64,000 nucleotides of DNA from Lachnospiraceae bacterium. GTDB lineage: Bacteria; Bacillota; Clostridia; Lachnospirales; Lachnospiraceae. The position numbers and the translations under genes are program-made. Each line of letters opens with the position of its first letter. Position 1 is the stretch's first letter. Below, piece after piece: positions 126 through 14,673 of this stretch. The notes beneath the pieces were generated by a model. It was given only the letters and a program-made list of their open reading frames with translations, was not told where the DNA came from and did not search any database. Location of the stretch: positions 1-64,000 of the forward strand of contig JAAWOU010000003.1 of assembly GCA_022799755.1 (NCBI GenBank), in the 5' to 3' direction.

Positions 126-650
126 CTACCGATTCCTAAGCCGTCCTGCCAGTATGTTCAGCATGGCGCCGCACGCTGCGAAACAGATCAGATAGAGCTT
201 GCCGATGCTGCTGGTACAGACTTCCAGCAGACCGCCCACCACCGGGTAGTGCAGGCACACCCTGCCGATGAGCTCCTGGTATCCCACGGGGTTCATGTCG
301 TTCTCCGCGTTGGCGTCTCCCTTGGTGATAAACTCTCCCTCTCCCACACGGTTCTTCACCACACGGTGGGCAATGACCGAATCCCCGCCGTGGAATGCAA
401 TGATGTCACCCTCCGCCACATCCTCCGGCCGCAGGGTCTCCACATAGATCACGCTTCCCACCGGTATCTCCGGCTCCATGCTTCCGCTGACTATGTTGTA
501 GACTTCATATCCTCTCGCGTGGGCCAGCGTAATCGGCAGATAGAATCCGATCACACCAAGCAGGATCAAAGTCCCTATTATGTTGCAAAGGGCGGGAACT
601 AACTTCCCGCCCCTTTTCTTCGTCTCCTGTCCCTGTGGACTACTGCTCAT
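126..650 (-). CDS. sipW: SipW-like signal peptidase I
   Basis: Motifs YNIVSGSMEPEIPVGSVIYV (catalytic Ser), GDIIAFHGGDSVIAHRVV and TKGDANAENDMNPV; hydrophobic N- and C-termini. ORF extends to 680; internal Met at about 650 is a plausible start. Confidence 0.85.
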   Translation of the reverse strand: MSSSPQGQETKKRGGKLVPALCNIIGTLILLGVIGFYLPITLAHARGYEVYNIVSGSMEPEIPVGSVIYVETLRPEDVAEGDIIAFHGGDSVIAHRVVKNRVGEGEFITKGDANAENDMNPVGYQELIGRVCLHYPVVGGLLEVCTSSIGKLYLICFAACGAMLNILAGRLRNR

Positions 651-2463
651 TTTCTTTCTTCCCTTTCCTGCGGGCCGCAATGATCAGCCAGATGCCTGCC
701 CCTGCCAGGGCTGCCACCGCTGCCAGGATACCGGCTTTCGCCGGGGTGGGGAGCATCGCCAGGGGCGTGGCAAGATCCTCCAGGATGGCGTCCGCGATGT
801 TCCTGCCGCCGCCATTGCCGCCATTCCCGTCCCCGTCGTCATCGAATCCTCCCAGCGGAGTCTCCTCCTCGTCCAGGTCCTCATATTCGTCCGGTTCCGC
901 CAGAGGAGGCACCTCGTCCTCCACCTCTACGATCCCGGGCTCCTGCTCAGGCTCTTCCGGCGTCACCACCGTCACGGGGGGAGCCGGTTCTTCCTCTGCG
1001 TCGGGCTCCTGGGGCGCTGCCGGCTGCCCGGGCACCACCACCGTGTTCACGTTGGTCACCGTAGGCACCTCCGTGTAGATGAATGTGAACAGATTCTGGG
1101 AGGCGTCCGCCGCCAGGGTCTTGCCCAGGTTGTAAGCCTGGGGCTGCCAGCCCTCAATGTACTGGTACGCCACCACCGGCTTGTCGCCTACATTTCCATA
1201 GTATACCGCACTGGGGTACAGCTCATTCCCCGCGGTGTCCTGATATGCCACGGTGTAAGCCACCGTCTCGCCCTGTATGCCGTAGGACACTACAAAGTCC
1301 GTGTCACCGGTCACTGTGACGGAGGGGTTGGCCAGTTTGTTTGTGCCGTTGTCCTCGCCGCTGACCCGAAAGCCCTTGCGGTAATACTTGCTGTCCGGCT
1401 GCAGGCTCACGCCTTTCTGAATGTCAAACACCACCTGGGTCCCATAGTGGAGTCCCTTTATCACGCAGACTTCCCCGTTTTCCACGCTGACGCTGGCGCC
1501 TGCGTCGGTAAGCCGCTGTACTACAGAGCTGTCGATGGTTCCCTGGGCGCCTGCAAAGAGCCTTAACGTGTAAGTGTAATCGGCCGAGGAAGCCTCCGCC
1601 GGCTGCGACATGCCAACGGACAGGCACAGGGCCAGCGCAATTCCCAGCGCTTTCGCGCCTTTCTTCTGTTTCTTCCGCTCTCTCAGTCCGAACACGGCCA
1701 AGAGCAGGAAGAGTACGCCGCTGACACCGGCAGCTATGATATAGGGAAGCAGATCGTTCTCGTCTCCCGTGCGCACAATCTGTGTCCTGGCGGAACTGTC
1801 TGCCCCGTCGCCGCCGTTTCCGCCGCTGACGCTACCGTCCGCGGGATCTCCGTTTTCGTCCACCACGCGGTTCACGGTCTGGGTGTTGACGGTGGTGGTA
1901 TCCACCGCAAAGTTCATCTGCAGGCTGGCCAGGGTATTCTGGTAATCATTGCCCTGGGTCTCGCCGTCTAAGGCTACCCGCAGCGTAATCACGGCGCGCT
2001 GTCCCGGATTCAAGGTGTCCAGGTACAGGAAATCCTCCAGGCCGCTGGTGGCCGCTTTCAGGCCGATGCGGCTTCCGTTATTGTCGCCGCCCACGGTGTC
2101 GCTGGTGAACAGGATCTCCCGCGTCCCCGCCGGATCCGTGTAGGCCAGCTCATATTCATATGCGCCGCCCTGGGCTCCGCTGCCTGCGGTTTCCTCCAGG
2201 GACTGCAGTACCTCGTTGGTCATGTACCAGTTGGCTGCAGCGGCATTGTCGTTTTTCAGATTCAGTGTGATGGTGATGTCGTCGCCGGGCTGCAGATCGT
2301 AGACCGCACTGTTCATGTCCGATGCCGTACGGTCTTCCGACAGCTTGCTGTCTTCGGTAAACGTCACGTTCCTCTCTGAGGTCAGCGTCTCCGCCCGGAC
2401 CGTACCCGGGGCGCAGACAAGCATCCCTGCCAAGAGGATGAACGTCAATAATTTTTTCCTCAT
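640..2463 (-). CDS. Large surface protein: TasA/pilin-like N-half with internal anchor-like segment, second half with MucBP-like repeat and C-terminal TM
   Basis: N-terminal signal peptide (MRKKLLTFILLAGMLVCAPGTVRA); internal TGDENDLLPYIIAAGVSGVLFLLLAVFGLRERKKQKK followed by a signal-peptide-like KALGIALALCLSVGMSQPAEA; YTVAYQDTAGNELYPSAVYYGNVGD.. MucBP-like; C-terminal TM plus RRKGKK. Confidence 0.7.
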   Translation of the reverse strand: MRKKLLTFILLAGMLVCAPGTVRAETLTSERNVTFTEDSKLSEDRTASDMNSAVYDLQPGDDITITLNLKNDNAAAANWYMTNEVLQSLEETAGSGAQGGAYEYELAYTDPAGTREILFTSDTVGGDNNGSRIGLKAATSGLEDFLYLDTLNPGQRAVITLRVALDGETQGNDYQNTLASLQMNFAVDTTTVNTQTVNRVVDENGDPADGSVSGGNGGDGADSSARTQIVRTGDENDLLPYIIAAGVSGVLFLLLAVFGLRERKKQKKGAKALGIALALCLSVGMSQPAEASSADYTYTLRLFAGAQGTIDSSVVQRLTDAGASVSVENGEVCVIKGLHYGTQVVFDIQKGVSLQPDSKYYRKGFRVSGEDNGTNKLANPSVTVTGDTDFVVSYGIQGETVAYTVAYQDTAGNELYPSAVYYGNVGDKPVVAYQYIEGWQPQAYNLGKTLAADASQNLFTFIYTEVPTVTNVNTVVVPGQPAAPQEPDAEEEPAPPVTVVTPEEPEQEPGIVEVEDEVPPLAEPDEYEDLDEEETPLGGFDDDGDGNGGNGGGRNIADAILEDLATPLAMLPTPAKAGILAAVAALAGAGIWLIIAARRKGKKENEQ

Positions 2464-2476
2464 CGTCTCTCCCCTC

Positions 2477-3196
2477 CTAGTCCAGACTCAATACGCCGTT
2501 GTCGATGGTCACCCTGCGGCCCCATGCGCTCCAGACGGCATCCTGGGCATTGTGCTCCTGCACCGCATCCACCTTGGCTTCGATGCAGAACCGGGCGCCG
2601 TCATATTCGTAGGTCCTGGTAATCGTGGTATACCCTCCCTGGGTCTGCCTCGTCTCGCTGACCCGGTTGGCTATGCTGCCGTCAATGGTCAGCTTATCCG
2701 CAAACAGCGTCGTCTCGCTCTGGGAAGCCAGGAGCTTATTATAGTAGAGCACGGTTCGTTCCCGGGTAGAAGCCTCCTCGTCCACCAGCCAGTCGCTGCC
2801 GATGTTCACCAGGTTCAGATCGATCAGATCCGGGGACAGGGCAGGGATCTTCTCTCCGTTCTCGTCCATCCAGTATTTGTGAATGCTGACACGGACATAC
2901 TCATTGATGACGCCGCTGTTGTATACGTTGAGTTCCTCCCTGTAGGCCGTTTGAAACTTCAGTTCCTCTCCCTCTCCAAGGAGGCCTTTCAGCAGTTCGC
3001 CCTCCACGGGCGCCCCGTTCTCCACCAGCGTCACGCCGATCTCCTGGAGCTGGATATTGGCCGCATAGTCCTCGGAAAAGTAAGTCAGCGCAGCCCTGGC
3101 TCCACCTATGGAGCTGAAGAGCAGCAGCCCCACCGCCAGCGCAAAGGCAGCTACGGTCGTAGCAGGAGAGGTCAATATCTTCTTAAACTTTTTCAT
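2477..3196 (-). CDS. TasA/camelysin-like SipW-dependent surface protein
   Basis: MKKFKKILTSPATTVAAFALAVGLLLFSSIGGARAALTYFSEDYAANIQLQEIGVTLVENG signal peptide of SipW-substrate type; in the same operon as SipW. Confidence 0.65.
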   Translation of the reverse strand: MKKFKKILTSPATTVAAFALAVGLLLFSSIGGARAALTYFSEDYAANIQLQEIGVTLVENGAPVEGELLKGLLGEGEELKFQTAYREELNVYNSGVINEYVRVSIHKYWMDENGEKIPALSPDLIDLNLVNIGSDWLVDEEASTRERTVLYYNKLLASQSETTLFADKLTIDGSIANRVSETRQTQGGYTTITRTYEYDGARFCIEAKVDAVQEHNAQDAVWSAWGRRVTIDNGVLSLD

Positions 3197-3768
3197 CCGT
3201 CAATTCCCCCTTCCATCCCGCCGGTCACCACCTGTACCGACCAGTCCGCGGCCTGGGAACCCAGTATGTTCCCGTCGGCGTCATACTGCACCGGCATGGA
3301 CTCATAGATGACGACTACATTACAATCATCACCCTCCTCGGCATCCTCCGGGAACGCGATCCGGATGTCAAGCTGGCTGGTTTGGGACTTGGACACCGTG
3401 CCGTCCTCCGTGGATGTGATCCCTGGGACCACGGAATTATAGTAATAATATCCGTCCGCACCGGCCTGCCATCCCTCCCCTTCATAGGTCAGGCCATACC
3501 GGCTGCCGCTGAAAGCCCTTGCCCGAACATACACCGGCGCGGTCCCCTCGTTGGTCACTGTCAGGTGCTTGGTGTGCTCCGAGTAGGTCTCCACGATTTC
3601 CGTCTCGTTCCCAAGGTTCACGGCATAGCCGCCGGAGGCGCTGGTGTAGGTGGTGAAATAAGCCCATGCGCTCCCCGCCGTGGCGGTGAGGATCATGCCT
3701 GCCGCCAGAGCGGATACTGCCGTCAAAAAGATATTTCTTCTCTTCATCTCATCCCACCCCCTACTCAT
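3193..3768 (-). CDS. SipW-type signal peptide protein, TasA-like
   Basis: MKRRNIFLTAVSALAAGMILTATAGSAWAYFTTYTSASGGYAVNLG..; 'AYFT' cleavage region typical of TasA/CalY proteins; 4-nt overlap with the downstream gene. ORF extends to 3768; internal MKRRN start is likely. Confidence 0.65.
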   Translation of the reverse strand: MSRGWDEMKRRNIFLTAVSALAAGMILTATAGSAWAYFTTYTSASGGYAVNLGNETEIVETYSEHTKHLTVTNEGTAPVYVRARAFSGSRYGLTYEGEGWQAGADGYYYYNSVVPGITSTEDGTVSKSQTSQLDIRIAFPEDAEEGDDCNVVVIYESMPVQYDADGNILGSQAADWSVQVVTGGMEGGIDG

Positions 3769-4939
3769 TCACGTCGGGTGTTCCGGCCGGGATCTGTGTC
3801 CAGTTCCACACCAGGCCCTCCCCGTCGTCCGCATACTCGAAATGGTTCGTGATGGCCGAACCCGTTCTGCCCGTGCCGTTGTATATGTTCCGGAAAGAAG
3901 CGATATTGCTAAAGTCCGCGTCCTCTAAAGTCCCATTGGTCATGGTCAGTGTCTGCGCCGGAGCGCTGTCCGGAGCCGTCTGGTAGGTGGCGCCGGAGTA
4001 AATCTCCGTGACGGTGACCTGGGCTCCCACCGGGATTTTGTCAGCGATCAGCTCGCTCTGAATTCCCGGCGCGGTGAAAGTCAAAGAGACTACATCGCTG
4101 TATACAACCCTGTCCCCGAAGACCGCTTCCACTGCGAAGACGAATGTGGCAGGATTTCCTGTCAGGTACTCGGTCAGCTCCTTGTCGATCCTAAGCGCCG
4201 CGAACCGCTCGCTTAAGGCCGGCTTGGACTCGGCCGCACCCATGCCCCTGAGTTCGTAGATCCACTCGCCCGGATTGGAGGTGGCGGCAGTGCCGTCCAC
4301 GCTCTCTTTGGTGGGCAGCGCCACCAGCTGGGGACTGTAGGTGAAAGTGTATGATTCCGAGTAGGCGACGGTCTGGATTCCGTCAGGCTCAGCGCCGTCC
4401 TCGGCGGGCCGGCGGACCAGGTAATCGGCCTGCTCCAGATCGGCCCCCCTGACCACCATCAGATAGAGACCCGGCTCTAAGTCCGTAAGCTCCACCGCGT
4501 CGCTTCCCTCCGCTTTCACGGCCGTGTAAGCCGGCGCCACAAAGTTCCCCTCCGCAAACACCACGGCCGCGGCCAGTCCGGCCTGTTCCATCCAGATCCG
4601 CGCCGCATCCGTCTCTCCTGCCCTGATGTCCACGTCCAGTCCGGCAAACGTGTCTGTCGTCTCAAAGCGGCAGGCGTCGAATCCCTCCTCTTTCACGGCA
4701 TCCGCCACCTTGTACAGGTCAACGGCCACGTCCGGCGACTGGGCCTCCCCGCTCTCCTCCATTGCCTTGGGCTCCACTTTTACCTGCAGCACACATTTCC
4801 TGGCAAGGTCCAGGGGTTCTGCCGCGCGGGCAGTCCCGCCCAGCGCCGCCATGGCACATCCCGCCGCCATTATGGATGCCAGCGCGAGGCAGGTCAGGCG
4901 GCCCCAGAACCGCCGGCGGCTCTTCCGTTTCATTTTCAT
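3761..4939 (-). CDS. Pilus accessory/minor subunit-like secreted protein
   Basis: Signal peptide, SpaA/Cna-like beta-rich region (LTDLEPGLYLMVV), lies between sortase and TasA-like genes; no LPXTG seen. Confidence 0.55.
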   Translation of the reverse strand: MKMKRKSRRRFWGRLTCLALASIMAAGCAMAALGGTARAAEPLDLARKCVLQVKVEPKAMEESGEAQSPDVAVDLYKVADAVKEEGFDACRFETTDTFAGLDVDIRAGETDAARIWMEQAGLAAAVVFAEGNFVAPAYTAVKAEGSDAVELTDLEPGLYLMVVRGADLEQADYLVRRPAEDGAEPDGIQTVAYSESYTFTYSPQLVALPTKESVDGTAATSNPGEWIYELRGMGAAESKPALSERFAALRIDKELTEYLTGNPATFVFAVEAVFGDRVVYSDVVSLTFTAPGIQSELIADKIPVGAQVTVTEIYSGATYQTAPDSAPAQTLTMTNGTLEDADFSNIASFRNIYNGTGRTGSAITNHFEYADDGEGLVWNWTQIPAGTPDVNE

Positions 4940-4966: not shown

Positions 4967-5878
4967 TTATTTAAATTCGTTGTCTCGCTTAAATTCCTCC
5001 AGCAGCTCCTCCCCGGTCTTGCCGGAGCGCTTCCTGCCGGACAGGATCAGCATGATTACCAGTGTGACGAACAGCAACGGTATCCCCACTGCAGGTATGA
5101 CGTAATAGGAGGGTATCTTCCGGGCCTCCGCGGCCACTATTACGATCTTTTCTTCCTCGATGTTGTCGATTCTGTGTCCCCGCACCAGCATCCTGTGGGA
5201 ATTGATCCCGTAGGGGGTACAGGTGAGCAGCGTGCAGTAGTCCTTGCCCCGGGTCACGTTCAGCGCCTCCATCTGAGTGGGCTCCACGATGAGGATCTGG
5301 TCCACCTCGTAGGTCAGTGTCCGGTTCAGCACCGTGAGGATGAAAATATCCCCTTTCTCCATCCTGTCTAAGTCCGTGAACAGCTTCGCAGAGGGCAGGC
5401 CCCTGTGAGCCGACATCACACTGTGCCGCCCCTCCCCGCCTATGGGAAGACTGGAGCCCTCCAAATGCCCCACGGCCACATTCAGCACGGGATCGCTGGT
5501 GCCGTGATAGACCGGGAGATTCACGCCGATCTTCGGGATAGAGATATGGCCTATGATGCCGTTCCCTGCCACGTCCAGGACGCTGTAGTACAATTCCTCC
5601 AGCTCCTCATGTTCCGAATACGGCGCGCCCAGTTCGTGCAGCTTTACATTGTATTCCTCCGCCGCGGCGAAGAGGGCCTCATAGTCCGTCTCATCCAACT
5701 CAGCCACTACCTCGTCATAGTTTGCAATGGCCCGGGTCTGGTGGAGGGAGTTCCAGTAGTCGCTGACTGTGGGGTAGAGCATGACGCCCAGCCCTGTCAG
5801 CAGGACCACCGTCAGGAGGATGTTGGAGAGGGTGCCCTTTTTCCTCCCCGTCCTCCGTTTCTTTTCTTTCTTCTTCAT
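4967..5878 (-). CDS. srtC: Class C (pilin-type) sortase
   Basis: GHISIPKIGVNLPVYHGTSDPVLNVAVGHLEGSSLPIGGEGRHSVMSAHRGLPSAKLFTDLD.., catalytic TLLTCTPYGINSHRMLVRG; two TM segments. ORF extends to 6040; start chosen at MKKKEKKRR. Confidence 0.9.
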   Translation of the reverse strand: MKKKEKKRRTGRKKGTLSNILLTVVLLTGLGVMLYPTVSDYWNSLHQTRAIANYDEVVAELDETDYEALFAAAEEYNVKLHELGAPYSEHEELEELYYSVLDVAGNGIIGHISIPKIGVNLPVYHGTSDPVLNVAVGHLEGSSLPIGGEGRHSVMSAHRGLPSAKLFTDLDRMEKGDIFILTVLNRTLTYEVDQILIVEPTQMEALNVTRGKDYCTLLTCTPYGINSHRMLVRGHRIDNIEEEKIVIVAAEARKIPSYYVIPAVGIPLLFVTLVIMLILSGRKRSGKTGEELLEEFKRDNEFK

Positions 5879-6095
5879 CGGTTTCCCGTCAGTCACTCCT
5901 TGCATCTTCTCTGGATTCCTGCCCCGGAAAGAAATGTTTTCCGGGCCGTTTGCTGAGCTTCGCCGGAACCGCCGCATACGCCATGCGGTTTTTCCGTTGC
6001 TCGCCGCACACCACGGGAAGGTGTCAGCCTCGTGCGGCATCCTCCGGGGAGGGGATACGGTCGGCCTGCCCCGGAAGTTTGGTGCTTATTTGATA

Positions 6096-7685
6096 TTAGT
6101 CACGTCCGCTCATGCGCTTCTTGGTGATCAGAAGTACGCCTGCCGCTACTACCAGAATACCGCCTACCACGTAGAAGATCGTGGTACCGATACCGCCGGT
6201 GGAGGGGAGGAGAGCTCCCGTGCTGTTACCGATCGATTCAACATTAACCAAATCTGCAATCTGTGTATCATTGTCACTGCCTGCCGCAATCTCAACCGCT
6301 GTCGTCGTTTCCATCAGGTTAAAGCCGTCGGGAGCCTTTGTCTCCAGCAGATAATAAGTTCCCTTGTCGAGCCCCGCCACAATATTACTCATACCGTCAG
6401 TTCCGGTAGTAACTTTTACAGTACCCTCCGGGAAATTCCCATCCGCTTTCGCTGCCCAGGCATAACCGTTTTCTTCTGTGTAGGTCAGATACTTTGTTGC
6501 ATCAGTAACCGCTATCGTATCAATGATTACGAATTCAGCGCCGCTCAGCTTTTTTGCTGCCTCTATTTCCTCAGCTGTAGGATTCGCTTTATCCTCCACG
6601 TTCGTCAAATCGAACTTTCTTACCTGCAGGGAACCTGTATAAATGTTGTTCTCCTTACCGGGATCCGTCGTATTCGCGTTGTAATTGATGGTAGCCTCGT
6701 TTGTAATTGCTGTGCCTGATGCTACGTCGGCCGTTACTTCTGCGTTATATGTGACAACAATCGTTCCCGGCACCTCATAGTAAAAGTCTTCTGCGGTTGC
6801 AGCGTCTGTCACAGTCTGGGTTGCAGCCCAGGGAATGGTAATTGTGAATTCACGGGTTGCAGTATTCTGCTCTACAGTATAAGTCTTCTCCGCATTTCCA
6901 CTTGTAGCAAGCGAAATCGTCTCGCCATTTACCTTAACTGCCACAGAGCTAAGATCCAATTCCATGCCCTCAGGCATTGTGTCTTTTACGACGTACTGAT
7001 ATACTTTTTCCGTATCGGTTGTCACATTGTCCCCGATTCCTGTGGTCTTAGTGACAAAGTTCTGTGCGTTTTCATACGAAAGCTCATACTGTACGGTCTC
7101 GCCGACAGCGTAGAAGATTTCTTCGACACGCCCGTCCGCATTCAATATATAAGACTTCTTGCCGCCATTGTCTCCCCAGCCGGGTTCGGTATTCTTCTCT
7201 GTGATGACGATATCACCCTCAACTGCTCTCAGCATTGCCGCTGCTCCGCCATTTGCGGTAGAGCTCACATAATAGTAGCCATCACTTAAATCCGTAAAAA
7301 CGACTTCTGCTTTGTCCGCATCCGCAGCAAGTGTTTGCACCGCAGGCGTCTCCAATGCAATGTTATCTGCATTTGCTTTCAGATACGCCACAAGATCAGC
7401 CGCTGCCAAATTGTCGGCCGGAATGTAATATACATTCGCTCCTCCGTTGTCAACTTCCGTGAAAAGAGCTCTGAAATCACCTGTGAGCTTCTTGTCTGCC
7501 GGTCTGGTATAGGACGCAGTACCGCTTTCAGACTCCGTTACATTGAAAATCTTGTACGCCTTATAGGTCGCACCTTTTACAGCGCCCTTGATCGTGATGT
7601 TCGACGCCGATGCGGTGATGCCCATGGCCAGAACCATGATGGCTGCCAAGGCAAACGCAAATAACTTTCTCATTTTACCTTTCAT
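6096..7685 (-). CDS. SpaH/EbpB-family LPXTG-anchored major pilin
   Basis: Signal peptide, Cna-type domains (KTTGIGDNV.., GLDKGTYYLLETKAPDGFNLM), C-terminal LPSTGGIGTTIFYVVGGILVVAAGVLLITKKRM sorting signal. Confidence 0.9.
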   Translation of the reverse strand: MKGKMRKLFAFALAAIMVLAMGITASASNITIKGAVKGATYKAYKIFNVTESESGTASYTRPADKKLTGDFRALFTEVDNGGANVYYIPADNLAAADLVAYLKANADNIALETPAVQTLAADADKAEVVFTDLSDGYYYVSSTANGGAAAMLRAVEGDIVITEKNTEPGWGDNGGKKSYILNADGRVEEIFYAVGETVQYELSYENAQNFVTKTTGIGDNVTTDTEKVYQYVVKDTMPEGMELDLSSVAVKVNGETISLATSGNAEKTYTVEQNTATREFTITIPWAATQTVTDAATAEDFYYEVPGTIVVTYNAEVTADVASGTAITNEATINYNANTTDPGKENNIYTGSLQVRKFDLTNVEDKANPTAEEIEAAKKLSGAEFVIIDTIAVTDATKYLTYTEENGYAWAAKADGNFPEGTVKVTTGTDGMSNIVAGLDKGTYYLLETKAPDGFNLMETTTAVEIAAGSDNDTQIADLVNVESIGNSTGALLPSTGGIGTTIFYVVGGILVVAAGVLLITKKRMSGRD

Positions 7686-7796: not shown

Positions 7797-10700
7797 TCAA
7801 GGCCGACCTCCTTTCTCCTTTTTACGCCTCATGCCGAGACCGTACACAAGACTGACCGCGATTGCCGCGAGACCGCCTAATGTATACATTGTGATGCCGG
7901 GGCCGCCGGTTTCAGGAAGCATAGCGCCGGTACTATTGGCAATTTCAATGGTATACGTCTCTTCCTGCTCATCCTTTGTGATCGTGACCTCTTCCATGTT
8001 CTCTTTCTTGTCAATGCCGCCTGTGGTAACGGTGATGACAAAGGCCTTTGCCGGTAAAATATAGCCGGCCGGCGCTTTCGTTTCCAGAATATGCCAGGTT
8101 CCAAGTCCCAGACTTCTGACGGGTTCATCGGTGGTCGTGTCGCATAACACGCCGGCCGTTCCCTCTACCTCTGCGGACTTCCATGTGTATTCCGTGGTTT
8201 GGCCGTCATCCGCCGTATACGTCACCTTAAATTCCGCACCGTTCAGATAGCGGTTCCCGGCTCCTGTCTCTTTTTTCCGAAGCATCACCGATTTCTCGGC
8301 GGGTACGTTGGCAACTTTCACCTCAATCGAGGTTTCCTCCGTCCCCACGCTTGCCTGGGCTATTATGTCTGTGCCCTGTCTGAGAGTAATCGTCTCAACG
8401 CCCACTTCCAGTTCATACGGCGCTTCCGGCGTCACATATCCTTCCGGCGCGCTTACTTCCTGCAGCCAGTAGGATCCCAGTTCCAGAGGTTCGTCAAAGA
8501 CAAGTCCATTCTCTCCCGATACCTTTGTTCCATCCGGATTTTCGGCTGTTGTCCATATGGATTCGGGATTGGTCTCCCCCTCAAATGTATCCGCGGTCTT
8601 GTTGTAGAGCTTAAATACCGCGCCTTCCAGGAATGTATCCTGATCTCCCTGGTTTGCGGCTGCTGTTTTCAGAAGTCTCACTGTCCTGGTCTTCAGGCAG
8701 TTGGTGATGGTGTAGACATTGATTTCTTTTGCTTGGCCGTCTATGGTCAGTGTTTCAGTGGTCTTTACCGCGTAAACGATATCCGTGTCTGCCTGCTGCG
8801 CTGCCGCTTCATAGCGGTCATCCAGATTCACTTCCGAAACTCTGTACTCTATTGCCTCGGGCAGCTCGGTGACCAGTTCCGTCCACTGCGCTGCCGCGTC
8901 CGATGATCCCTCCGGCGCTCTCAGTGTCACAATGCCATCCGTTCCGTTATCGATGGGTTTCCAGGCATCCTCGGCTCCGTTTCGATATTCGACTTTAAAC
9001 TGAACCTCCTCCGGACGGAATCCCTTTGCGTCGTTCTCATCATCCCATACTTTTACCAGCTTAATGGGGACGATCTTCTCGTTCCTGACGATTATATTTC
9101 CGTCTTCCATCGTGCCCTCTGGTGCACTGGCGCCGGTGTAAATCATGTTGGCGGGAATCTTTGCGTCCTGTGCCACATCACTCGGCGCATTTGTATAGCA
9201 GACTGTCACGGTACCGACTTCTTTGCCGCCTTCCGGCACTGCTTTGTATCCGGCCGGAGCTTTTGTCTCGACTAATGTGTAGGTGCCCCATGGCAAGTTT
9301 TCAAAACCTGTCAGGCCGTTTTCGTCAGAGATTCCCTTGAGCGGATTTCCGTCCCGGTCTGTTACCGTCTGGCCATTCTGTCTCAGGATAAACTCGGCTC
9401 CCTGGATTCCCTGAAGAGGGGTTGACATATCGTCCTGGTCCGCTTTCTTTAGGGAAATGTCGTACAGCAGGCCGCGGACATAGGGAACCGGGAATGCCAG
9501 CGTTGTACCCTTGTCATATGTCAGGGTGGCCGACTCATTTACCCGATAGCTGTGACCTGTGTTTGCACCATTGTGTTCGTCGTCTGCACCGCTGTTCATA
9601 CAGCCGGCACAGCTGTTAAAACCGGCTTTTGTCACATCCAGCCTTACTCTGTAAATCAGTTCGGCTACATTACATCTCCAAACAATTTTTGTGTTTCCCT
9701 CCACGGTTTCAACATAATCAGGATTTCCTTTCACCTTGGGTACCCAAGTCAATCTTCCGCTGCCGGCATCATAACTGGGTGCCTGGTCATAGTCTCCCTT
9801 TACGACGCTGTCATAAATGATGTAGTCTCCCATGTCATCTACGACACTTTTTAAATCAAACTTTGTTACCATTTCCTTCTGCAGAATATCGATAACCGTA
9901 TCCGGCAGTTGAATTGTATTGGATCCCTCCCTTACTTCAGGACCAATCAACATATACTTTCCTGCATTGTCACCTTGCGATAGCTTAATATAAAGTGTTA
10001 TGTTATTTCCTTTTTCAAAGCTAAAGGGGACATTGCTCGCCAATACATTCCCATTCCTGTCTTTCAGAGTTATTGTACATTTTTTATTTAAACTGCTCCC
10101 ATATGCCACACCAACATCGCTTCCGTTTAGCGCAATAATCGTTCCTATCGTAGTGTCATGGTTGTTGTTGGAAGATATGGCGGCAAATTCCGACATTTCA
10201 AAGTAACTGGTAAATTCTTCTTTCATATCCACCGACAGATACACCAGGAACTCATTCTCCACATCCGTGGGAATCACATTCTTCTGAAGTCGGACCTTGT
10301 CATTCTTTGCGGGCTTATCTCCAGCGGTATTTCCCACATATCCCCCGCTTACAATCTGCCACCCGTTCTTTCCCTCCGGCAGCGTCATCTTATCCAGAAT
10401 GCTTCCCTCCGTTTCTTCCGCCACCGTGGCCGCGCTGTTCATGCTGTACACGGCCGCGCCTGTGGTGGAGAAGCTGTCCTGGGTAAATTCAAAGTCGCTT
10501 CCCTCACCGCTTTCCACTACCTGAGCATCGAGAACCTCGGTCCCGTCCTCTGCAAAGTGTACGGCCGACGTGATCTCGCCCTCGTTCACTGTCACCGGGT
10601 TCTGATAGCTGATGCGGATGTCCACCGGTGCCTCCGGCTCTATCTTCTCATTGTCCACCAGGAAAGTGATATCGAAGAACCTGACAAAGGATATCTGGAT

Positions 10701-12587
10701 CTCTTTCTCCGGCGTCTCCGGGTCCATGTTTTCCTGAGCGATGGCCTGGAGCATCTCCTGGTAGCATGCCTCGAACTCGGCAGTGCCTTTCAGAATTTCT
10801 TCCACTTTCAGCGTTGCCCTCTTGGGAATCCGCGCCTCCGCGCCATATGTCACCATGACCGTATAGTCTTCTCCCTGTGCGGTCAAAGTGCGTCCGCCCT
10901 CAGGGAACTGCTCTTGCGCCGCCACCGTGGCCAGTACGGATACACCGTTTTGCACAAATCCGAATCCGGTGCTTTCCTCGGTCTCCTCAACCGTGCCTGC
11001 CAAAGCCACTGTGCCGTCCTCCGCAATGCAAGCCGCCGATGCCGTTCCGTCCTCGCCCATGGCTATCGGGCTCTGATACCTGATCTTGGCCTCTACGGGC
11101 GTCTTGGGCACAACCGCTTCGCCCTCTTCTGTCACAAAGGAAATGCGGAAGAATTTTGCGAAAGTAAGTTCCATCTGCTCTTTGCTCTGGGCCTCTTCCT
11201 CTGTGATCTCGGTGTTGCTGTCTATGGCTGCCAATACTCCCTGGCAATATTTCTCGTATTCCTCCGAACCCTCCGGAATCTCCTGAACATTCAGCGCTGT
11301 CCCCAAGGGAAGCTCCGCGTCCTCGCCGCAGGTGACTTCAACCGTGTAGCCGTTTCCCTCCGCAGTGAGTGCACCCTGGAACCATTCCGGCTCGGGCTCC
11401 TCCGCAATCTGAAAGCACTCCTCTGTATGCACATGCTCTGCGGCTGCCAGCTGTCCGCAGGTGAGGGCGGTCTCAGTTGCATAGCACTCCTCGGTATGGG
11501 TATGTGCGCCCTCTGCCTCAGCGGTCTCGCAGGTCAACTCTTCGGTCCAGGCATAGCACTCGTCCGTGTGCTCATGGATCCCCTCGGGTATCTCACAGAC
11601 GGATTCCTCGCTCCAGGCATAGCATTCGTCCGTGTGCTCATGGCCCTCTTCCTCAGCCTGGCCGCAGCTTAACTCTTCATTCCAGGCATAGCATTCGTCC
11701 GTGTGCTCATGGCCCTCTTCCTCAGCCTGGCCGCAGCTTAACTCTTCATTCCAGGCGTAGCACTCGTCCGTATGCTCGTGGCTCTCCTCGGCCAGTCCGC
11801 AGGTCAGCTCCTCGGTCCAGGCATAGCATTCGTCCGTATGTTCATGCCCTTCCTCCTGGGAAGCGCAGGTCAGATCCCCTTTTGTCTTTGTGTAGCACTC
11901 CGGGCCGTGTCCGTGGCCCTCCCCGGCCGTACAGGTCAGGTCGCCCTTTACTTTCACGTAGCATTCCGGGCTGTGCCGATGCCCTGCCTCGTCCTTTCCG
12001 CAGGTCAGGTCGCCTTTTACTCTGGTATAGCACTCCGGGCTGTGCTGATGGCCGGCCTCGTCCTTTCCGCAGGTCAGGTCGCCCTTTACTTTCTCATAGC
12101 ACTCTTCGCCGTGCTCATGCTCGGTTCCCTCAGCCTCACAGATCAGGTCGCCCTTTACTTTCTCATAGCACGCCTCGCCGTGCTCATGGCCCTGGGATTC
12201 CTCCTGGCCGCAGACCAGCGTCTCCTGCTCCGTGAAGCACGCGTCCTCATGTACATGGAGCTCTGCCGTTATCTCGGGCAGGGTGCACACCAGCTCCCCC
12301 TCCTCCCCATAGCAGCTCTGGTCATGGGTGTGGATGACGTAGTCCGCCTGGCCGCAGATAAGCTCCCCGTCACTGCCCTGGCACTGCTCCGTGTGCCGGT
12401 GTATCTCCGGCTGACAGCTGAGCGCTCTCTCCCCCTCATCCGCGGTGAGCGCCTGGCCGCTCAGGGTCAGCGCCGCCACCGTCCCCGCCGTCACCAGCAG
12501 GGCCAGGCTCAGAAACGCCGTCAGCCAGATCTTATATTTCCTCTGCTCCCCCAAGATTCTTGCAGCCTGTTTCCTCAAAGATTCCAT
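7797..12587 (-). CDS. 1596-aa SpaA/Cna_B-type LPXTG adhesin/pilin with N-terminal His/Cys repeat region
   Basis: C-terminal LPETGGPGITMYTLGGLAAIAVSLVYGLGMRRKK; several Cna_B/SpaA motifs (GTYTLVETKAPAGYKAV, GSYWLQEVSAPEGYVTP, GTWHILETKAPAGYILP); about 15 HxHxxxC repeats at the N-terminus. Confidence 0.9.
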   Translation of the reverse strand: MESLRKQAARILGEQRKYKIWLTAFLSLALLVTAGTVAALTLSGQALTADEGERALSCQPEIHRHTEQCQGSDGELICGQADYVIHTHDQSCYGEEGELVCTLPEITAELHVHEDACFTEQETLVCGQEESQGHEHGEACYEKVKGDLICEAEGTEHEHGEECYEKVKGDLTCGKDEAGHQHSPECYTRVKGDLTCGKDEAGHRHSPECYVKVKGDLTCTAGEGHGHGPECYTKTKGDLTCASQEEGHEHTDECYAWTEELTCGLAEESHEHTDECYAWNEELSCGQAEEEGHEHTDECYAWNEELSCGQAEEEGHEHTDECYAWSEESVCEIPEGIHEHTDECYAWTEELTCETAEAEGAHTHTEECYATETALTCGQLAAAEHVHTEECFQIAEEPEPEWFQGALTAEGNGYTVEVTCGEDAELPLGTALNVQEIPEGSEEYEKYCQGVLAAIDSNTEITEEEAQSKEQMELTFAKFFRISFVTEEGEAVVPKTPVEAKIRYQSPIAMGEDGTASAACIAEDGTVALAGTVEETEESTGFGFVQNGVSVLATVAAQEQFPEGGRTLTAQGEDYTVMVTYGAEARIPKRATLKVEEILKGTAEFEACYQEMLQAIAQENMDPETPEKEIQISFVRFFDITFLVDNEKIEPEAPVDIRISYQNPVTVNEGEITSAVHFAEDGTEVLDAQVVESGEGSDFEFTQDSFSTTGAAVYSMNSAATVAEETEGSILDKMTLPEGKNGWQIVSGGYVGNTAGDKPAKNDKVRLQKNVIPTDVENEFLVYLSVDMKEEFTSYFEMSEFAAISSNNNHDTTIGTIIALNGSDVGVAYGSSLNKKCTITLKDRNGNVLASNVPFSFEKGNNITLYIKLSQGDNAGKYMLIGPEVREGSNTIQLPDTVIDILQKEMVTKFDLKSVVDDMGDYIIYDSVVKGDYDQAPSYDAGSGRLTWVPKVKGNPDYVETVEGNTKIVWRCNVAELIYRVRLDVTKAGFNSCAGCMNSGADDEHNGANTGHSYRVNESATLTYDKGTTLAFPVPYVRGLLYDISLKKADQDDMSTPLQGIQGAEFILRQNGQTVTDRDGNPLKGISDENGLTGFENLPWGTYTLVETKAPAGYKAVPEGGKEVGTVTVCYTNAPSDVAQDAKIPANMIYTGASAPEGTMEDGNIIVRNEKIVPIKLVKVWDDENDAKGFRPEEVQFKVEYRNGAEDAWKPIDNGTDGIVTLRAPEGSSDAAAQWTELVTELPEAIEYRVSEVNLDDRYEAAAQQADTDIVYAVKTTETLTIDGQAKEINVYTITNCLKTRTVRLLKTAAANQGDQDTFLEGAVFKLYNKTADTFEGETNPESIWTTAENPDGTKVSGENGLVFDEPLELGSYWLQEVSAPEGYVTPEAPYELEVGVETITLRQGTDIIAQASVGTEETSIEVKVANVPAEKSVMLRKKETGAGNRYLNGAEFKVTYTADDGQTTEYTWKSAEVEGTAGVLCDTTTDEPVRSLGLGTWHILETKAPAGYILPAKAFVITVTTGGIDKKENMEEVTITKDEQEETYTIEIANSTGAMLPETGGPGITMYTLGGLAAIAVSLVYGLGMRRKKEKGGRP
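11420..12405 (-). repeat. Degenerate tandem repeats encoding 15 HxH-x3-C(Y/F/Q).. LxC units (about 60-75 bp each)
   Basis: Units such as HEHTDECYAWNEELSCGQAEEEG (two consecutive identical copies), HEHGEECYEKVKGDLTCG, HQHSPECYTRVKGDLTCG, read from the translated ORF. Confidence 0.9.
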
Positions 12588-12620: not shown

Positions 12621-13325
12621 TTAGTTTATCAGTCCCATCTCCCGCACCGGCCATATCCGGAACGTGATCTTTCCCACCACGCTGTCCTCGCTGATGCAGC
12701 CCACCGACCTGCTCCGGCTGTCTACGCTGGTGGCCCTGTGGTCTCCCATGACGAAGCATTTCCCGTCCGGCACCTGGCAGGGCAGCTCTATGTCGCACTG
12801 TCCCAGGGCTTTCTGCGCCAGGTAGGGCTCGTCGACGGGCTCCCCGTTGACGTATACGTTCCCCTCCCCGTCTATGTCCACCCAGTCCCCGGCGGTGGCG
12901 ATGACCCGCTTCACCAGGATGCTGTTGTTGTAGTAGAACGCCACCACGTCGCCGATCCGGAATTTTGCGCCGGACACTGCCACCACGATATCCCCGTCCT
13001 GTAGGGTCTGTGTCATGGAGGTGCCGTCTATCCGAAGCACCGGCAGGAACAGTACCGCGGTCAGCACCGCTGCCGCCGCTACCACCAGCAGAGAGAAGCT
13101 TGTGCTGCGCAGGACCTTTCTGTACCGGCTCTTGTGCCGGGTCTTGTGCAGTTCCTCCTCCAGCTGTTCCAGGGTGGGGGCTTGCGCTTTCCGCTCCCCG
13201 GCTGTTCCCTGCTGCGGTTCCCTGCTCAGCTCCTCCAGCCCTATCTCGTCCAGGTCGTACACGTATATCTCCGCCATGGATGCCTGTTCTCTTCCGTCAG
13301 GCCGGCCCTTACGTCTGCGCTTCAT
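12621..13325 (-). CDS. lepB: Signal peptidase I (LepB type)
   Basis: RIDGTSMTQTLQDGDIVVAV (Ser), NNSILVKRVIATAGDWVDIDGEGNVYVNG (Lys), KCFVMGDHRATSVDSRSRSVGCI (box E). GAGGA SD upstream of ATG. Confidence 0.95.
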   Translation of the reverse strand: MKRRRKGRPDGREQASMAEIYVYDLDEIGLEELSREPQQGTAGERKAQAPTLEQLEEELHKTRHKSRYRKVLRSTSFSLLVVAAAAVLTAVLFLPVLRIDGTSMTQTLQDGDIVVAVSGAKFRIGDVVAFYYNNSILVKRVIATAGDWVDIDGEGNVYVNGEPVDEPYLAQKALGQCDIELPCQVPDGKCFVMGDHRATSVDSRSRSVGCISEDSVVGKITFRIWPVREMGLIN

Positions 13326-13354
13326 GTAAAAGTTCCTCTGTCCTGTCCCGGAGA

Positions 13355-13380
13355 TACCTCATAATAAACATTACGAGGTA
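13355..13380. repeat. Inverted repeat, left recombination-site candidate (IRL): TACCTC-ATAATAAACATTAC-GAGGTA
   Basis: 24/26 identical to the reverse complement of 13636..13661; each copy has perfectly complementary 6-bp arms around the same 14-bp core. Confidence 0.92.
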
Positions 13381-13635
13381 ATTTTGAGGGGAATATAAAG
13401 TTTTCGTTCCAAAACCCATTTTCATTCTCTATTTAGACGTATCTTTTGACTTGAAGTTTGGTATAGTGTTTTTACAGGCAGCACAAGAGCAGCCATACCT
13501 TTATTCAATGGCTGAACGGAAAGTTCCTATATATCAGAAATACTTTGGAAAATACTTTGGAAAATGATTCTCAGATATTGAATTTCTAAAACGGAAAGCG
13601 TATAATGAATCAGGACTAAAGGTTATTTTCAGGAG
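13381..13635. other. Putative invertible promoter segment (255 bp between the inverted repeats)
   Basis: Bounded by IRL/IRR, next to a tyrosine recombinase gene, contains an outward-facing promoter, lies immediately upstream of a 13-kb pilus operon. Confidence 0.82.
13578..13606 (+). promoter_or_regulatory. Sigma70-like promoter TTGAAT-N17-TATAAT, directed rightward (away from the pilus operon)
   Basis: -35 at 13578..13583, 17-nt spacer, perfect -10 at 13601..13606. Confidence 0.8.
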
Positions 13636-13661
13636 TACCGCGTAATGTTTATTATGCGGTA
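13636..13661. repeat. Inverted repeat, right recombination-site candidate (IRR): TACCGC-GTAATGTTTATTAT-GCGGTA
   Basis: Reverse complement TACCGCATAATAAACATTACGCGGTA matches IRL except for one compensatory base pair in the arms. Confidence 0.92.
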
Positions 13662-14509
13662 TTTTCATTGTACAGCACCAGCCCCAGGCCGTCCAGGCGC
13701 CGCTCCTGCATCTCGCAGCTCATGAGAGTGTAGATGCGGGTGGTGTTGATATTGGAATGACCCAGCAGGTCAGCCAGATGGCAGATATCTTTTTCCATAT
13801 TATAGTAAGTAACCGCAAAGAGATGGCGGAGATTGTGCGGGAAGACTTTCGCCTCCTCCACGCCGGCCTCCCGGCACAGGGCTTTCATGGAATGGAGGAT
13901 GTTGCTGCGGTCCATGGGTCTGCCGCCTCGGGTCACGAAGACGCTGCCTGTCCGGATCCCAGCCGCTTTCGCATAGCGCTTCAGCTCCCGGCACAGATCC
14001 AGCGGCAGGATCACCGTTCGGGTCTTTCCCTTGAGAGATACCGTGGCCCGTCTGGTGTGCAGAGCGTCCACGGTGACAAAGGGCAGCTCGCTGACCCGGA
14101 TGCCGGTGGCGCAGATGGCCTGCATGACCAGGCACAATCTCTGGTTACCCTTGCGTCTCGCCGTCTCCACAAGGCGCATGTACTCTTCCCTGGACAGCTC
14201 CAGCTCCTTAGAGCGGAAGACGGCTTTCTGAACCTTGAACGTGCGCACCGCGCATTCGGGCCGCCCTAAGAAGCGCAGAAAGCTGTTCACCCCGGCCAGC
14301 ATGGAATTGATGCTGGCCACTGTGTAGGTCTCCGCCAGATGCCTCTTGTAGCGGATGGCAGCCTCCTTTGTGACAGATTGCCCGCCCAGAAAGGCAATGA
14401 AAGCCTTTGCGTCACGCAGGTATTTTTCGATGGTGGCTCTGCTTTTTTCCTCTGCCTGCAGCCTCTCTCTGAATTGTTCTATCGCAGTCTTATCTTTTGT
14501 GAATTCCAT
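13652..14509 (-). CDS. Tyrosine recombinase/integrase (285 aa), candidate DNA invertase for the adjacent promoter
   Basis: MEFTKDKTAIEQFRERLQAEEKSRATIEKYLRDAKAFIAFLGG N-terminal SAM-like domain; ATGIRVSEL, HNLRHLFAVTYYN, LGHSNINTTRIYT catalytic R..HxxR..Y signature. Stop codon lies inside IRR. Confidence 0.92.
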   Translation of the reverse strand: MEFTKDKTAIEQFRERLQAEEKSRATIEKYLRDAKAFIAFLGGQSVTKEAAIRYKRHLAETYTVASINSMLAGVNSFLRFLGRPECAVRTFKVQKAVFRSKELELSREEYMRLVETARRKGNQRLCLVMQAICATGIRVSELPFVTVDALHTRRATVSLKGKTRTVILPLDLCRELKRYAKAAGIRTGSVFVTRGGRPMDRSNILHSMKALCREAGVEEAKVFPHNLRHLFAVTYYNMEKDICHLADLLGHSNINTTRIYTLMSCEMQERRLDGLGLVLYNENTA

Positions 14510-14613
14510 TTCCCGGCCTCCTGTCCTCCTCTTGTTCATTTGAAAGAAAATATATGACTGTTCGGATTTCTCATCGTACCATATTCTCTGTGGGTTTGTC
14601 ATCTCTGTTTCAG

Positions 14614-14653
14614 AAAAATCCCCGGACCGTACACATCTGCACAGTCCGGGGAT
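14614..14653 (-). terminator. Intrinsic terminator downstream of the SPOCS/LysM gene
   Basis: Minus strand ATCCCCGGAC-loop-GTCCGGGGAT followed by TTTT. Confidence 0.75.
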
Positions 14654-14673
14654 TCCGGTTCGGCCTATTCTTT

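Follow-up and report, generated by a model that had tools for sequence, protein, structure and literature searches.

It is well established that invertible promoters can be linked to tyrosine recombinases. In Escherichia coli, the fimS element is a promoter segment of ~300 bp that is bounded by inverted repeats, lies alongside a tyrosine recombinase gene and switches an adhesive fibre ON or OFF, as is proposed here. The closest anatomical match to the present locus is SZO08560/SZO08550 of Streptococcus zooepidemicus, where, likewise, an invertible promoter of an LPXTG surface-protein gene adjoins a recombinase gene; the inverted state of that promoter would transcribe the reverse strand of the recombinase gene, and both orientations are present in reads (PMC2654543). 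The RecV switches of Clostridioides difficile (flg, cmr, cwpV) share with our locus the tyrosine recombinase, the short intergenic position and the Clostridia host (PMC9286219, PMC5903667), and inversion signatures in Clostridia are reported mainly near signalling and chemotaxis genes (PMC5903667). According to the available parts of two surveys, PhaseFinder-type gut invertons are also inverted-repeat-bounded segments near surface genes, with a median of three invertons per genome in Firmicutes_A (PMC11892184, PMC11868660); the first of these profiles invertons in a defined gut community. Here we analyse a window, i.e., the whole 64,000-nt stretch at the start of contig JAAWOU010000003.1 of a Lachnospiraceae bacterium, in which a segment of similar architecture precedes a pilus operon (Table 1). 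We consider it highly likely that this segment, 13381-13635, is a reversible promoter cassette of the neighbouring recombinase, which switches the lepB-pilin-sortase operon and was captured in the OFF state.

Table 1. Coordinates of the putative switch, its recombinase gene and the adjoining operon in the window
Feature	Coordinates	Strand	Remarks
Second signal peptidase	126-680	-	archaeal-type/SipW-like model hit
607-aa exported protein	640-2463	-	
Two short exported proteins	2477-3196, 3193-3768	-	without Pfam match
Distal co-directional genes	126-3768	-	assigned to the operon from direction and spacing
DUF5979 surface protein	3761-4939	-	operon member; conserved in L041, 72% identity
Class C (pilin) sortase	4967-6040	-	
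Major pilin	6096-7685	-	SpaH/EbpB family, LPXTG anchor
Large LPXTG tip-type pilin	7797-12587	-	1596 aa; SpaA, Cna_B and GBS104-like domains
Signal peptidase I (lepB)	12621-13325	-	first gene of the operon
Left recombination site, TACCTCATAAT-AAAC-ATTACGAGGTA	13355-13380		11-bp palindromic arms, 4-bp spacer; fits the 66-element site profile
Invertible segment	13381-13635		255 bp; captured in the OFF orientation
Candidate promoter P1, box TTTAGACGTATCTTTTGACTT, then extended -10 TGnTATAGT	13432-13467	+	from the alignment of six elements
Small inverted repeat, CAGCCAT...ATGGCTG	13490-13514	+	between P1 and P2; in four of five copies
Promoter P2, TTGAAT-N17-TATAAT	13578-13606	+	end of the -10 to right site: 29 bp
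Right recombination site, TACCGCGTAAT-GTTT-ATTATGCGGTA	13636-13661		inverted; identical 14-bp core; holds the recombinase stop codon
Tyrosine recombinase	13652-14509	-	285 aa, putative cognate inverter; R/K/HxxR/H/Y motifs aligned to XerC-like structures
Candidate recombinase promoter, ATGACA-18-TACGAT with TG	14573-14602	-	consensus match only
Strong hairpin followed by TTTTT	14600-14660	-	-35 kcal/mol; likely terminator of the upstream SipL/LysM gene

The anatomical claims of the preliminary description, which had been made from the letters of the window, were borne out: the two 26-bp sites and their common core are present at the positions given, the stop codon of the recombinase ORF lies inside the right one, the neighbouring protein is a tyrosine recombinase by its Pfam match and catalytic motifs, the rightward TTGAAT-N17-TATAAT is found on the plus strand, and the operon, as its model matches indicate, begins with lepB 29 bp past the left site (start 13325, preceded by the Shine-Dalgarno sequence AGAGGAA). 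The full imperfect inverted repeat extends over 34 nt (13354-13387 / 13629-13662, 85% complementary). Its score of 21 was not approached by any of 300 dinucleotide-preserving shuffles of 12901-14600, the maximum of which was 13, and among 276 control windows from related loci seven scored at least 15 and two reached 21. As in fimS-type invertons, a short segment is thus bounded by repeats beyond chance expectation. The right site, read on the plus strand, consists of an 11-bp hairpin followed by TTTTC, with a predicted folding energy of -13.5 kcal/mol, and in the ON arrangement the left site is without a T-run. A role of the right site as a terminator throughout the family was considered and rejected, given that, in the wider set, a T-run follows the site in the pilus subfamily and not generally.

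The recombinase carries the R, K, HxxR, H/W and Y residues of tyrosine recombinases; its catalytic domain matches Pfam PF00589 (2.2e-25), and the alignment with XerC-like and XerA structures spans GIRVSEL, the lysine, HNLRH, GHSN and the IYT tyrosine. It does not score as a chromosomal XerC/XerD protein (105-140 bits vs. curated Xer cut-offs of 220-335), lies far under the XerC, XerD and XerA equivalog cut-offs, and is matched weakly by the NCBI models of tyrosine-type DNA invertases (32.9 bits vs. a cut-off of 221). Homologs of the recombinase were sought in 99 relatives, in all 138 genomes of the genus and in 397 genomes sampled from the family; many were found, and 71 of the 397 encode a close homolog. 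Five further loci bear organism names, namely, Lachnospiraceae, Lachnotalea and [Clostridium] symbiosum. An inverted-repeat pair was detected beside the 3' end of the recombinase gene in 66 of the 75 loci in which the recombinase is at least 43% identical, and of the nine loci without a pair, three run into a contig edge. In a set of 19 loci from other genera, picked after the rule had been formed and later merged into the 66 so that the two counts overlap, the pair was found on the 3' side in 18 cases and on the 5' side in one; the single locus without it on the 3' side is interrupted by a contig end. Conversely, none of 12 more distant tyrosine recombinases was accompanied by such a pair, and seven of the 276 control windows have one at the same threshold; the linkage between enzyme and repeats thus characterizes this recombinase family. 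Because the tyrosine recombinase superfamily is rich in integrases, a mobile element could be invoked, with the enzyme as its integrase and the repeats as its attachment or excision sites. We find this hardly credible: the repeats are inverted, ~150-410 bp apart and on the 3' side of the recombinase gene; the enclosed DNA contains a promoter and no cargo gene; and relatives differ by inversion rather than insertion. Moreover, a search of viral contigs yielded no relative of the recombinase, which argues against phage origin.

The counts leave out a set of loci (L083, L088-L091, L093) in which the recombinases fall below ~43% identity (36-41%), the repeats are 140-190 bp apart and the core, ACGATA, is constant; several of these lie beside an amidase-like gene, and they look to form a distinct group that is perhaps linked to prophages. 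In L048, L050, L052, L056, L080 and L085, the first gene on the operon side encodes a second, ~30%-identical recombinase, such that two recombinases flank one switch. A decayed copy was also observed in the assembly of the window (G000:C140:18285-18479, L058:9279-9476), where a 65-aa N-terminal recombinase fragment with 58% identity has no inverted repeat nearby.

Alignment of the 66 pairs yielded the site profile ACCACATAAT-N4-ATTATGTGGT, i.e., palindromic arms around a short spacer. The central 4-bp spacer is the least conserved part of the site between elements, with 47 different 4-mers in 66 elements, and the left and right spacers of the same element are identical in 66 of 66. The left-right agreement is 62-83% at arm positions 9-12 and falls towards chance beyond 15 bp. 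Strand exchange by tyrosine recombinases requires an identical spacer in the partner sites. It should be noted that site detection needs an 8-bp exact seed, which by itself guarantees some of the left-right identity; it does not, however, account for the contrast between the variable spacer and the imperfect arms.

The operon of ~13 kb that starts with lepB combines LPXTG pilins with a class C sortase (NF033902, NF033745, TIGR01167) and, judging from these model matches, is a sortase-assembled pilus operon. The tip pilin contains many His-Cys repeats of the HEHTDECY/HRHSPECY type, and the lengths of homologous tip proteins vary between 1596 and 2225 aa, which indicates that the repeat number or the domain content varies. 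In two relatives of the locus (L042 and L034), lepB is directly beside the site, and in L041, which is without lepB, the tip pilin gene occupies that place at a distance of ~150 bp. Across the family, the operon side begins with a co-directional gene in 54 of 63 cases, and this gene typically starts less than 100 bp from the site. In a plain tally, many of the first and second genes encode SpaA/LPXTG proteins, pilins, signal peptidases, BTAD/SARP regulators or capsule/exopolysaccharide functions. The BTAD/SARP-type regulators that follow cassettes (L040:7573-9267, L037:11575-12741, L053, L055, L056, L085) stand ahead of giant surface proteins, and one regulator of this type behind a cassette has an AP2-like domain; these cassettes could possibly form a phase-variable regulator layer. 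The cassettes of L082 and L135 are followed by genes for a signal peptidase and a short exported protein, and these loci by eye resemble SipW/TasA-type matrix loci, making a phase-variable biofilm fibre conceivable.

Within the segment, P2 ranks first among the promoter-like sites of the region, with 10 of 12 matches to the consensus, and is kept in all five pilus-subfamily copies, with TTGAAA in L074. Scores in the rightward direction reach 11.4 (p=0.02 vs. shuffles), whereas those in the leftward direction do not exceed 4.0 (p=1.00), no better than shuffles; the statement in the preliminary description that the minus strand of the segment holds no comparable promoter is upheld. Both P1 and P2 are preserved in the five pilus-locus copies against a diverged background, and P1 is found also in L043. 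As P1 has no ordinary -35, it may depend on an activator, and regulation in this manner is possible. The P1 box might be an OmpR/PhoB-type direct repeat (TAGAC...TTGAC), although its spacing is 12 bp, not 11. The small hairpin between the two promoters shows a compensatory change in L074 and is absent from L042; it might serve as an operator. Neither P1 nor this hairpin had been noticed in the preliminary description. An Rfam scan of the region produced no credible RNA, the single CcsR1 match being discarded as sub-threshold (23.6 vs. 65.3 bits). In-silico inversion brings the -10 of P2 to an end 84 nt upstream of the lepB ATG, in agreement with the "about 80 nt" put forward previously, and that of P1 to 223 nt. 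As in fimS, the promoter inside the segment is aimed at one end, and the target gene lies beyond one site.

A different account of the same promoters is that they work as they stand, producing antisense RNA to the recombinase gene that limits switching, with the pilus operon read through from the recombinase gene. P2 does aim at the 3' end of this gene, 29 bp from the site, and for the inverted state in S. zooepidemicus reverse-strand recombinase RNA is expected and was assayed (PMC2654543). The recombinase gene and the operon are co-directional, and no minus-strand terminator was found between them in the region, such that read-through could leak in the OFF state. The strong hairpin with a T-run upstream, which likely insulates the recombinase gene from the SipL/LysM gene, suggests that the recombinase gene probably has its own promoter. 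However, the hairpin and TTTTC of the right site on the plus strand could terminate antisense RNA prematurely, both orientations are represented among homologous segments, and in seven elements the promoter points toward the operon. We therefore regard this account as very unlikely in place of a promoter switch, although antisense RNA may coexist with the switch as a form of feedback.

The evidence for inversion comes from homologous elements that are found in both orientations, as expected of a fimS-type switch. L039 and L040 share 258 bp, sites included, at 99.6% identity but in opposite orientations, between flanks of 99.4% and 97.5% identity; L054 and L081 are inverted relative to each other over 398 bp (90%), and L048 and L051 over 254 bp (85%). 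L039 is on contig G000:C125:1-16000, from the assembly of the window, and L040 on G026:C16. Other genes of the two assemblies are 80-86% identical, compared to 97.5-99.4% for these contigs, and C125 may, accordingly, be mis-binned or recently transferred. The inversion between L039 and L040 stands even if C125 is mis-binned; L039 may then be no paralog in the genome of the window.

A clearly better-than-shuffled promoter was found in 40 of the 66 elements, and in 38 of these 40 a distance of 26-56 bp separates the end of its -10 box from one site. The promoter points toward the recombinase (OFF) in 33 elements and toward the operon (ON) in seven, an excess with a binomial p=2e-5 when elements are treated as independent, which overstates it. 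Because a cut-off of p=0.05 should yield ~3 false promoter calls per strand, some of the seven ON calls may be noise; the strongest are L040, L035, L117, L052 and L047. Going by predicted promoter direction, the assembled state across the family is usually OFF. All five pilus-subfamily copies (the window, L041, L042, L034 and L074) have the same OFF orientation, and in the 138 genomes of the genus the pilus locus was seen in this orientation only. The proposal of the preliminary description, an invertible promoter with an adjacent recombinase in the OFF state, fits all the comparative tests, namely, the linkage, the spacer identity, both orientations in homologs and the fixed position of a promoter directed at a co-directional surface operon, whereas the ON state was not encountered at the pilus locus itself. 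These five copies, together with the left and right arms that differ (TACCTC vs. TACCGC) around the identical core, could mean that the cassette is real and the lineage of the window is locked, fully or nearly so, in the OFF state through asymmetric arms or a silent recombinase, with the pilus silent or otherwise driven. This is unlikely, given that the recombinase is intact and retains every catalytic motif, and that the spacer of L034 has changed to CGAC and is the same in both sites; such preservation of left-right identity implies ongoing selection or recombination. Moreover, with OFF being the commoner assembled state in the family (33:7), five OFF copies are unremarkable.

Taken together, these comparisons of sequence indicate that a promoter inversion switch is very probably real and functional for the pilus operon. 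In the proposed mechanism, the recombinase would bind the palindromic arms of both sites, and strand exchange within the identical central spacer would invert the intervening 255 bp. In the captured state, P1 and P2 would read rightward into the recombinase gene from its 3' end, with no promoter of the segment directed at lepB; P2 transcripts would meet the hairpin and TTTTC of the right site, and antisense RNA across the recombinase gene may thereby be limited. After inversion, both promoters would lie upstream of lepB at the distances given above, and the 13-kb operon would be transcribed. We infer that the copy in the window inverts, that the adjacent recombinase is its enzyme and that pili are made only in the ON state. 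Pilus expression would then be all-or-none, although regulation at P1, or read-through out of the recombinase gene, could modify this. More tentatively, and somewhat short of an even chance in our estimate, Lachnospiraceae might possess many self-contained, spacer-addressed cassettes that flip independently from an OFF default, with P1 adding conventional control. Each recombinase would then act on its own site pair, so that several surface loci per genome could flip separately, and inversion would license, rather than dictate, pilus expression.

In gut Clostridia, sortase pili are probably adhesins exposed to host and diet, and similar cassettes adjoin surface-structure loci across Lachnospiraceae. 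If the proposed switch operates, a culture or a genome would usually be OFF, and studies of piliation or adhesion could miss the pili. The family rule, i.e., repeats at the 3' end of the recombinase gene, a matched spacer and a promoter 26-56 bp off, predicts phase-variable surface loci from assemblies.

The differences from the described systems are as follows. The S. zooepidemicus switch has 10-bp repeats, GTAGACTTTA/TAAAGTCTAC, around ~115 bp and serves a single surface protein, compared to a pilin-sortase operon here (PMC2654543), the two systems being compared by anatomy. In E. coli, fimS controls chaperone-usher fimbriae and is served by two recombinases, FimB and FimE, both small. RecV, compared by architecture, is one recombinase acting on several switches, whereas here each switch has its own recombinase and spacer. 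The pili of Bifidobacterium breve and Streptococcus gallolyticus are also phase-variable; the available parts of the respective reports attribute this to replication slippage (PMC9187656) and to an attenuation-like mechanism (PMC3894217), not to inversion. The available main texts of the two inverton surveys (PMC11892184, PMC11868660) make no mention of sortase or Lachnospiraceae, and promoter inversion for a sortase pilus operon was not found in the main texts and abstracts searched; individual family members may already be listed elsewhere as unnamed invertons. The mechanism is, thus, known in kind, and the new elements are the sortase-pilus target, the second conserved promoter and a uniform family with one recombinase per switch and putative spacer addresses.
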